From: Sphingomonas lacunae
GTDB lineage: Bacteria > Pseudomonadota > Alphaproteobacteria > Sphingomonadales > Sphingomonadaceae
Direction of reading: 5' to 3'
Assembly (NCBI RefSeq): GCF_012979535.1
Contig: NZ_CP053015.1
Location: forward strand, 62,001-126,000
DNA length: 64,000 nt
Part shown: in pieces, positions 7,098-10,244 of the stretch
Layout: every line of letters begins with the position of its first letter
Position numbering within the stretch: the first letter of the stretch is position 1
Notes under the pieces: model-generated
Database searches by the model: none
Seen by the model: the letters and a program-made list of their open reading frames with translations, nothing else
Told to the model about the DNA's origin: nothing
Program-made: the position numbers and the translations under genes

Positions 7098-7132
7098 GAC
7101 GTGTCACCGTAATTCCCGTCACCGTAGTTCCC
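7098..7132. repeat. 19-bp direct repeat copy 1 with a 15-bp tandem duplicate
   Basis: GACGTGTCACCGTAATTCC at 7098-7116 is repeated exactly at 8623-8641. Within it, GTCACCGTAATTCCC (7103-7117) is followed at once by GTCACCGTAGTTCCC (7118-7132). This copy lies 28 bases past the end of the small membrane gene of the second RHS cassette. Confidence 0.85.
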
Positions 7133-7159: not shown

Positions 7160-7312
7160 CTATCTGCGGTGAATGACATTGCGGATTACAGGTCCAAAAA
7201 TTATAAGCCCAAGAACTACCATCGCCGGTATCGTATAAAACGCATACTTGCCGATCTCGGCAAGGAAGACCGTGTGAACGATGAGCAGGGCTATATAGGC
7301 GATCTTCCACAT
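7160..7312 (-). CDS. 50-residue two-helix membrane protein, candidate immunity protein of the second RHS cassette
   Basis: A short frame from ATG at 7312 to TAG at 7160 encodes 50 residues. It starts MWKIAYIALLIVHTVFLAEI, then a short polar turn (GKYAFYT), a second hydrophobic segment with VVLGLIIFG, and ends in the basic tail VIRNVIHRR. It begins four bases after the stop codon of the RHS protein, on the same strand. This is where RHS and contact-dependent toxin systems carry the immunity gene. I do not recognise a named family. The immunity role is inferred from position and from membrane topology, which would suit a toxin acting on the membrane. The ribosome-binding site is weak, so translation may be coupled to the upstream gene. 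Confidence 0.55.
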   Translation of the reverse strand: MWKIAYIALLIVHTVFLAEIGKYAFYTIPAMVVLGLIIFGPVIRNVIHRR

Positions 7313-7316
7313 AATT

Positions 7317-8474
7317 TTAACACTCAGGAATATTTGAGCTGACGACTCTGCCGCGGGTCATACTTGCAGCTGCACCGCCCCCACCTTCGAGTCCGCCTTG
7401 GATTGCAGCCAGATTCCCGTCGCCATCGAAAGAGGAATCAATGCCGACGATCGCGCCAGCCCGTAACGCTGTGCCTTGCCCGACAAGCGACCTCAAATCC
7501 GGTGATACACCGCCCGAATATCCAAGAGAGGCATACAACCCGAGGTGCGCTGAGCCGACAGCAATAACGCCTTCCGAACCTGAATACGCGTCATGGAACC
7601 TGAGGAAGGAGATGCCTGCGCCAAAGACCAGCGAAAAGTCTAGATTTGCGCCATGGAAGGTAACTACGCCGTCGTCGAGAGTCCTCGGACCTGCACCTAC
7701 AATCCGCCGACCGTTATCAGCCAAGCAGTATGGATTTTTCTTTTTCGGCCTGCGTCCGGTGACAACGATGTCCTTATTACTCTCAGTCCCTGGACTATAC
7801 CCATTAGCGTAATTCAGTGCTGGAAATGTATGCAGGATGGAATTTGTGTCTCTAGGACCAATAACAATAATAGGCCTATTCACATAGGTTGCCATCCCCG
7901 TCGGATCGCGCATATTCAGCGGATCATTGCCGACATAGGCATAGAGGTTCATCTGGTCCTGATAGCCGATGGGGTCAGTCTGCAAAAACCGGCCCAGCGT
8001 CGGTGAGTAGATGCGGGCCTTGTAGTGGTACATGCCCAGTTCCGGGATCCACGCCTGGGTCTCGGGACTTGCCTGTCCCCCGGACAGGCGCGTGCCTCGA
8101 CTATATTGGAACCGGCCAAGGTTGGTCGCGTCGGGCACGCCCCAATCGTCATAGCGATCGATCGCCAGCAGCGCGCCGGTGCCGTTGGTGATGCCCACGA
8201 TGCTCCCCTGATTATCGGCGAACAGATGGCGGCGGCTGGTCGCCGTCACCGTGGCGCCTTCATACCATATAATCGGATCATCAACAGAGGCCCCGTGCAC
8301 ATATCGGCGCAACAGGGTGCCGGTTGAACTATATTCGGCGACCAACTCATCCCCATCGTAGAGGAACCGCGTTACCCCCGCGCTGCCGCCCGAGGTTTCA
8401 TAGAGGCGACCGAGCGGATCATAGATGAGGTTGGCGGTGCGCGCGCCGGTAGCCGCGATCAGGCGGTTCTGCAC
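7317..8474 (-). CDS. Orphan RHS core fragment with a glycine-rich C-terminal domain (second cassette)
   Basis: About 385 residues from a GTG at 8474. Residues 1-194 are the end of an RHS/YD-repeat core ([16 protein letters not shown] near 157-171, ending [12 protein letters not shown]). Residues 195-385 are a variable C-terminal domain containing [12 protein letters not shown] and a long glycine-rich hydrophobic stretch. I do not recognise this domain. The RHS frame stays open upstream as recognisable YD repeat to about 8612, with no proper start, so this is a cassette cut from a larger protein. The core is nearly identical to that at 9780-10180, but residues 124-139 replace three residues of the other copy and contain a palindrome. 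A small membrane gene follows after four bases. No secretion signal is present; the piece may be silent until recombined. Confidence 0.7.
8058..8105 (-). repeat. In-frame palindromic insertion within the RHS core
   Basis: Compared with the sister core copy (9935-9943), this copy has 48 bases in place of 9, a net gain of 13 codons without frame loss. The inserted DNA contains GCCTGTCC (8071-8078) and GGACAGGC (8082-8089), a perfect eight-base inverted repeat around CCC. Confidence 0.65.
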
Positions 8475-8622
8475 ATCATAGGTGTAGCTGGTCGATCCAT
8501 CCGAAGTGAGGTTGCCCCGCGGATCATAGGTGAAGCTCGCCGTGCCAGCTGTCAGATATTGGTTGAGGCCGTTGACGCTGTAGGTGCGGGCGACATTGGC
8601 AGCGACAATTCGGGTAAATGTG
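8475..8622 (-). pseudogene. RHS YD-repeat remnant upstream of the second cassette
   Basis: Read on the minus strand this continues the RHS frame with YD-repeat sequence such as YSVNGLNQY and [13 protein letters not shown], then loses recognisable RHS character at about 8612-8622, just beside the second copy of the 19-bp repeat. There is no plausible start codon with a ribosome-binding site, so it is a truncated 5' end. Confidence 0.65.
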
Positions 8623-8641
8623 GACGTGTCACCGTAATTCC
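8623..8641. repeat. 19-bp direct repeat copy 2
   Basis: GACGTGTCACCGTAATTCC, identical to 7098-7116 and 1,525 bases away. It lies between the end of the first candidate immunity gene and the truncated 5' end of the second RHS fragment, so the two copies bracket the whole second cassette. Confidence 0.9.
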
Positions 8642-8678: not shown

Positions 8679-9212
8679 TCAACAAAAAATTGAATCGCAA
8701 TACAATTCCCTCCTTTTGTCTGGAGTTATATCAGAAAACTGCTCAAAATTTATATTCAATTTTTTGACTATTTCCACAGATTCTATAGTATAAAAAACTC
8801 CATCTGGCGCCTCCGCCACGCTGATTCTGGCTATTTTGCCTTTGAAAGCAAAAATCTTTGCTTTATCCCATTGGCCATCTAAATCATCTACAGTATTTGA
8901 GATAAATCTATTATAACTTAACCCATTTTCCGATATAAAACCTTTATCATCGATGATTTTCAAGGCATTTATCGCCACATTAATAGTATTATCGCGACCT
9001 TGAATAGATGTGTAGCACCTTACAGACACAAAATTTGTGAAAACTTCCGTCTTGTTTTCAACAAGTATGAGTATTGCTTGAATGTCGCCTTCACTTGTTG
9101 ACCAACATTTTGGAATATTTAAATATTCTTGATATGATACATTATTTATTTGTTGGCTTTGATTAAGGTAGCCTGAACAAGCCAAGAATAATATAAATAT
9201 ATATTTAGTCAT
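8679..9212 (-). CDS. AT-rich hypothetical exported protein, candidate immunity protein of the HExxH RHS cassette
   Basis: A 177-residue protein that begins [18 protein letters not shown]. This is a short signal peptide with a lipobox-like FLAC, so it may be a lipoprotein, although Phe at -3 is unusual. No family is recognised. The gene is strikingly AT-rich, with many ATA, AAT and TTT codons unlike the GC-rich neighbours, which points to recent transfer. Its ATG overlaps the stop codon of the upstream RHS gene as ATGA (9209-9212), so translation is probably coupled. Position, size and base composition match immunity genes of polymorphic toxins. A periplasmic or membrane location would protect against a toxin active outside the cytoplasm; this is inferred. 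Confidence 0.65.
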
Positions 9213-10150
9213 GGAAACATCGGCCTCCCAGCCTCTGCATCAATAGCACTATCTATATCTTGAGAACATGTAGATCTAATAAGACAATAACTTGACATTC
9301 TAAAATGTAAATAACCTCTCCAATCCAAATTTGATCCTGCGAAATCACCAAATTCAGCTCTATTCATTAAAAATGACATAACAAAAGGCCTAACTTCACG
9401 TTCGAGTCGGTTAAGACCCCCTACCTGTTGTCCTTGGTGGACCATCTCATGGGCCACCACTGCACCTACTGACAACCCCGTTCTCTCGATTTTTCTCGTG
9501 TCTATTTCGATAATGTTTCCTACCAAATGATAGCGACCTACAGGTGTTCCGGAAATTTCGCCTGTTTGCACTGTAACACCACCGCTACCTTCTGTTCCGA
9601 ACCTGTCCATCATTCGCCCTATCGCAGCCGCTGCTGCGCGAAAAGCGTGATTCTGGGCTGGAGAGGCCGACATATTGCGAGCCTGCCTTAGATAGTAATT
9701 CCGAGCAGCCTCCATTGCACCCTGCGCACTTCTAGCTGCTGCACAAGCGTCGATTGTTTTACATTCATACATCCCCATCGGATCCCGCCCATTCAGCGGA
9801 TCATTCCCCACATAGGCATAGAGGTTCATCTGGTCCTGATAGCCGATGGGGTCCGTCTGCAGGAACCGGCCCAGCGTCGGTGAGTAGATGCGGGCCTTGT
9901 AGTGGTACATGCCAAGCTCGGGGATCCACGCCTGGCCGGTAAACTGGAACCGGCCAAGGTTGGTGGCGTCGGGCACACCCCAATCGTCATAACGGTCTAT
10001 CGCCAGCAGCGCGCCGGTGCCGTTGGTGATGCCCACGATGCTCCCCTGATTATCGGCGAACAGATGGCGGCGGCTGGTCGCCGTCACCGTGGCGCCTTCA
10101 TACCATATAATCGGATCATCAACACCCGCCCCGTGCACGTAACGGCGCAA
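9209..10150 (-). CDS. Orphan RHS core fragment with HExxH zinc-peptidase C-terminal toxin domain
   Basis: About 313 residues counted from a TTG at 10150; the RHS frame continues to about 10177 and meets a stop at 10199-10201, with no good start. Residues 1-127 are RHS core ending [11 protein letters not shown], nearly identical to the copy at about 7890-8340. The remaining 186 residues form a different domain carrying [12 protein letters not shown], with HExxH at residues 234-238, followed by [10 protein letters not shown], where Glu250 or Glu252 could be the third zinc ligand. This is the layout of a zincin-type metallopeptidase, known among C-terminal toxin domains of RHS and other polymorphic toxins. 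The candidate immunity gene follows with an ATGA overlap. Lacking an N-terminus and secretion signal, it is an orphan module rather than a complete toxin. Confidence 0.7.
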
Positions 10151-10244
10151 CAGCGTGCCGGTTGAACTATATTCGGCGGTCCATTCAGGGCGAAAACCCT
10201 AAAAAGGAACTGACAGCGCCGTTACGGCTTGCTAGGCCTTGACC

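Follow-up and report, generated by a model that had tools for sequence, protein, structure and literature searches.

The window analyzed here, a stretch of 64,000 nucleotides, belongs to the complete 2.98 Mb genome of Sphingomonas lacunae. On its reverse strand lies an open frame of 329 aa (10198-9209, -) made up of the C-terminal fragment of an RHS core (9770-10187, -) and, after it, a distinct tip (tip 1; 9212-9769, -). The model TIGR03696 (Rhs_assc_core) covers residues 70-143 of this frame (E = 2.3e-22), and the homology of the fragment to the other core copies of the genome starts near 10178. The fragment is startless: a stop codon is found just upstream of the frame, and the first possible start, a TTG at 10150, falls inside the RHS core homology, so we judged it no credible start. 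The 187-residue tip begins after DPMG and contains HEMVH (residues 234-238, counted from the TTG at 10150). Its stop codon overlaps the start of the next gene (8679-9212, -) as ATGA at 9212-9209. This gene codes for a 177-aa product with a hydrophobic N-terminus, predicted to be exported and probably a lipoprotein, which carries a CW...C signature and is a candidate immunity protein. The GC content is 0.61 in the core, 0.46 in the tip, and 0.32 in the downstream gene, against 0.615 for the window. An earlier note, made from the letters alone, had described a startless RHS core fragment, a separate C-terminal domain with HEMVH, the ATGA overlap, and an exported, AT-rich gene of 177 residues; all of these were recovered in the present analysis. 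We refer to this unit as orphan module 1.

A second orphan module immediately follows the first one. It consists of an RHS core fragment (7893-8620, -; TIGR03696 E = 3e-19), a tip that is unrelated to tip 1 and has no Pfam match (tip 2; 7317-7892, -), and, 4 nt after tip 2, an ORF whose translation is a 50-aa membrane protein (7160-7312, -), possibly the immunity gene. Its core (7893-8340) shares 93.9% nucleotide identity with core copy 1 (10178-9770). A REP-like 15-mer, GGAATTACGGTGACA, is located where modules 1 and 2 meet (8627-8641, -), and it occurs again at the far end of module 2 (7102-7116, with a degenerate tandem copy at 7117-7131; 7102-7131, -); the two copies are direct repeats that bracket module 2. 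The genome has two exact copies of the 15-mer and one with one mismatch, and all three lie at the ends of RHS orphan modules. The third is at the end of the remaining module, in another locus (L005 7317-7331, -). The core fragment of that module (L005 6823-7315, +) has a short tip that ends at the REP-like sequence, as if cut.

Three pieces of RHS core were counted genome-wide (module 1, module 2, and one at 2,054,820), and no full-length RHS gene is encoded in the 2.98 Mb, as the earlier note had supposed from the window. The three fragments share 92-94% DNA identity with one another, carry three different tips, and probably share a common source, judging from this identity. The nearest core among the other genomes searched was that of genome G007 (75% protein identity), and the nearest named plasmid relative was from Sphingomonas changnyeongensis (72%). 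Since the genome holds only three core fragments, each with its own tip, it lacks the parent RHS gene. A main rhs gene with a near-identical core at the same locus is likewise absent from this genome-wide count; such a gene is a trait of the Salmonella and Serratia examples and does not form part of the definition of an orphan module. Its absence indicates that either the parent was lost or the modules were imported. The flanking TetR gene had a close match in none of the nine genomes compared.

The tip was found on long carriers elsewhere. When 398 genomes of the order were searched with it, two relatives stood out clearly (E = 8e-18 and 8e-10), and both form the end of long RHS proteins, of 869 aa in G261 and 906 aa in G349. 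A profile search of 398 genomes of the family extended the set: in G886, G889, G160, and G882 the domain is placed after an RHS core, in G996 the copy has a disrupted frame, and in G378 there is a fragment next to the remnants of transposases. In five of these genomes (G261, G349, G886, G160, and G889), which belong to other genera of the same family, RHS frames of 869-1,062 aa carry the tip, and next to each of them comes a small gene for an exported or lipoprotein-like product with the invariant CW...C signature. Thus the homologues on complete carriers that the earlier note had called for do exist, and module 1 combines a startless core fragment, in frame with a tip that comes after DPxG, with a tip that sits elsewhere on full-length or long RHS proteins. 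Sec-type signal peptides, judged by eye, were seen on the carriers of G261, G349, and G889.

The tip family is patchy, as it was present in nine of the 398 family genomes, this one included, and every one of them is from a different genus. The boundary of the domain is sharp after DPxG, and AHExxH is invariant in the alignment of seven tips, which are just 24-34% identical to the window tip. Leave-one-out profiles retrieved all seven complete tips (E from 1e-17 to 1e-34; 6e-26 for tip 1), and the family is therefore no product of a single alignment. None of the Pfam or NCBIfam toxin models matches tip 1. Two relatives gave sub-threshold matches to metallopeptidase models (Zn_peptidase_2, E = 1.2e-4; M91, E = 4e-4), and DUF6782 also matches weakly. 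The M91 model (PF14891) does not match the window tip, and in one relative, G349, it scores 21.1 bits, short of the cut-off of 25. Scans of genome contigs with the tip and with the tip alignment yielded no confirmed relative, and no tip was found on plasmids. The weak class-level matches in G630 and G830 and the order-level matches in G219, G231, and G397 were dropped, as RHS context was absent from the loci inspected; the order-level match in G159, whose locus was outside the inspected set, was not accepted as a relative. In the resources searched, the family appears to be undescribed, and it is unnamed in Pfam or NCBIfam.

Some of the carrier loci have arrangements of their own. The RHS carrier of G261 (L014 5178-9766, -) consists of two overlapping genes, each with a signal-peptide-like N-terminus, and this split carrier is reminiscent of Tc toxins, whose shells come in two parts. 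The congeners of G261 have both short (about 880-895 aa) and long (1,400-1,484 aa) RHS frames. In G349 (L015 9739-10803, +), the toxin-immunity pair is followed by one more RHS core fragment, which has a different tip, and G886 has the same arrangement (L027 5532-7022), with an extra core fragment and tip after the pair.

A structure model of the tip, built from the seven tips, had a pLDDT of 88.7 and a pTM of 0.87 and showed a compact zincin topology: two long helices and three short strands, with HExxH on one helix (101-113), a following helix (123-140), and a conserved acidic residue, Glu252, near the start of the latter. The zincin-like fold anticipated around HEMVH is thus predicted. The best PDB match in Foldseek was deuterolysin (E = 0.22, probability 0.98). 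With VIA-align all top five rows were M35 peptidases (Z of 9.4, 8.2, 8.2, 7.3, and 7.3; deuterolysin 1eb6, 9.4; AsaP1 2x3c, 8.2; the Grifola peptidase 1g12, 7.3), although mostly helical models may reach such Z values through arrangement alone. Sequence profiles against the PDB gave only weak zincin matches (ArdC and M48, E from 0.5 to 1). In M35 peptidases the third zinc ligand is the Asp within the motif GTxDxxYG. This motif is absent from the aligned tips, so we did not assign the tip to M35 and take the resemblance as one of fold only.

Two candidates for the third ligand, Glu250 and Glu252, had been put forward. All nine tips (seven aligned, two fragments read by eye) have E or D at the position of Glu252, whereas Glu250 is not conserved among the aligned tips; the third ligand is most likely Glu252 and not Glu250. 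In the model, then, the arrangement is that of an MA-clan zincin, with HExxH on the active-site helix and a candidate third ligand on the next one. We hold with moderate confidence that the tip is a zincin, a prediction from the model that is strengthened by the invariant AHExxH.

A small gene is located directly after the tip in seven other genomes. The hydrophobic N-terminus of its product ends in Cys, and the product also has an invariant Cys-Trp, with another Cys further on. The 177-aa protein of the window matches the neighbor protein of G261 with E = 2e-13. The neighbor protein is poorly conserved across the relatives. Leave-one-out profiles recovered six of the eight neighbor proteins (the window protein with E = 5e-11) and missed those of G889 (E = 50) and G882 (E = 0.12), so these two rest on position, the hydrophobic N-terminus, and the CW. 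Nine hits were obtained with the immunity profile over the 398 family genomes, of which eight adjoin a tip, these eight being the same sequences from which the profile was built. The ninth, in G854 (L056 1279-1692, -), is a lone homologue without a tip, beside a Doc/Fic-like gene, and may be an orphan immunity gene. The strict lipoprotein (lipobox) pattern was present in five of the nine sequences, including that of G854, and is not satisfied by the window protein. The structure model of the neighbor protein reached a pLDDT of 68 and a best Z of 4.0, and with these values the idea of a potempin A-like inhibitor with an OB fold (Foldseek E = 0.29) was unsupported; a match to the Pfam model Tox-PL-2 (E = 0.09) was rejected as chance. 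There is an invariant Cys in both the tip and the neighbor protein, which fits an oxidizing compartment. Position, export signal, and co-conservation support the neighbor as a candidate immunity protein located in the envelope.

Several known systems resemble this one. In Pseudomonas aeruginosa, VgrG2b is a periplasmic metallopeptidase toxin with an exported immunity protein, PA0261 (PMC6899460). The C-terminal domain of VgrG2b is also an HExxH zinc metallopeptidase tip with a Glu as third ligand, which in our tip is predicted; it is toxic in the periplasm, and the immunity proteins of the PA0261 type are exported and in some relatives are lipoproteins (PMC6899460). The likeness is one of description, and the carriers differ: VgrG2b is borne by a T6SS VgrG spike and the present tip by an RHS protein, several of the carriers bear signal peptides of the Sec type, and VipB is missing from the host genome. 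The loci do not present the picture of a T6SS-delivered RHS effector, as the sheath gene VipB/TssC is absent from the S. lacunae genome and several carriers elsewhere have signal peptides. Tox-MPTase1-5 are small zincin-like HExxH domains at RHS C-termini (Zhang et al. 2012, PMC3482391), and the tip is likewise a small domain of this predicted kind ending an RHS protein, but it is matched by no Pfam or NCBIfam toxin model; the table of that study gives no immunity protein for Tox-MPTase1-5 (PMC3482391). Orphan rhs modules have been described in Salmonella (PMC3967940), and displaced tips in Enterobacteriaceae (PMC2935791). The rhs-CT/rhsI orphans of Salmonella share with our modules a startless core fragment, a tip with an immunity gene, a low GC content of the tip, and an arrangement of several in tandem. 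However, the orphans of Salmonella and other Enterobacteriaceae have a full-length main rhs gene upstream of them, whereas S. lacunae has no full rhs gene.

On this basis we regard it as very likely that module 1 is a displaced (orphan) RHS toxin-immunity module, formed by a zincin-type peptidase tip and an envelope immunity protein. In the full carriers, the RHS shell would be exported, several of them having Sec-type signal peptides; the variable tip, a zincin-type zinc endopeptidase, would arrive in the envelope of a rival and cleave proteins there; and the product of the next gene, probably a lipoprotein in the envelope, would block the peptidase in the producer. Modules such as those of S. 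lacunae would have been displaced by recombination. Peptidase activity, the periplasmic target, toxicity, protection, and this displacement are what we infer from the predictions above. The carrier signal peptides, the conserved cysteines of both proteins, and the exported neighbor suggest a site of action outside the cytoplasm. In S. lacunae the toxin is probably silent because its carrier is absent, and at most the 177-aa immunity gene may still protect the cell as an orphan.

The last point can be taken further: only the 177-aa gene would matter, kept as an orphan immunity gene against neighboring cells, and the toxin fragment would be a dead relic. We consider this possible, although we lean against it, and it is a variant of the displaced-module explanation and not its opposite. 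The toxin has neither a carrier nor a start, the region is AT-rich with promoter-like sites exceeding those of shuffled sequences (a weak signal), G854 carries its immunity homologue without a tip, and in Serratia orphan immunity genes do protect (PMC10539506). Nevertheless, the frame of tip 1 is still open and every conserved residue is present, so that signs of decay are absent, which speaks against a dead relic. It is much less probable that the HExxH domain is a protease that processes the RHS protein for its release or maturation, with the small exported protein as its partner or chaperone. Zincin domains can act as releasing proteases in toxin carriers, as does the PVC-metallopeptidase (PMC3482391), but here the domain comes last, behind DPxG, where the variable toxin sits, with nothing after it, and the same position bears unrelated tips in other RHS genes and on the other two cores of this genome. 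That the tip targets eukaryotic hosts as an effector, like the M91 (NleD-like) family, is the most improbable reading, since the M91 match of G349 (E = 4e-4) is below the curated cut-off and concerns one of seven members, and the conserved exported neighbor gene suggests self-protection and hence antibacterial use.

As to the sequences at the ends of the modules, the simplest reading is that the modules share a source already bearing the REP-like repeats. In G996 the neighbor gene of the tip is followed by the same motif and a RAYT-type gene, and in G378 by a piece resembling the end of a RAYT gene; the S. lacunae genome has no Y1 transposase. The motif as a general mark of RHS loci was rejected, as 16 other sites in eight family genomes had no RHS nearby, by a simple motif check; two loci among the motif sites in those genomes adjoin a RAYT gene. 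It is a speculative and rather unlikely idea that REP-like, RAYT-related sequences mark the ends of the cassettes and helped to spread or excise RHS tip-immunity cassettes; if true, REP-mediated spread or excision would explain orphan cassettes in a genome without a carrier.

Our literature search found no RHS work dedicated to sphingomonads, and the present analysis adds a family of predicted peptidase tips with exported immunity proteins to the RHS toxin repertoire of this group. It also documents orphan RHS modules that have either outlasted every parent RHS gene or come in without one, and the tip and its neighbor provide a clean pair for asking what periplasmic metallopeptidase toxins cut.
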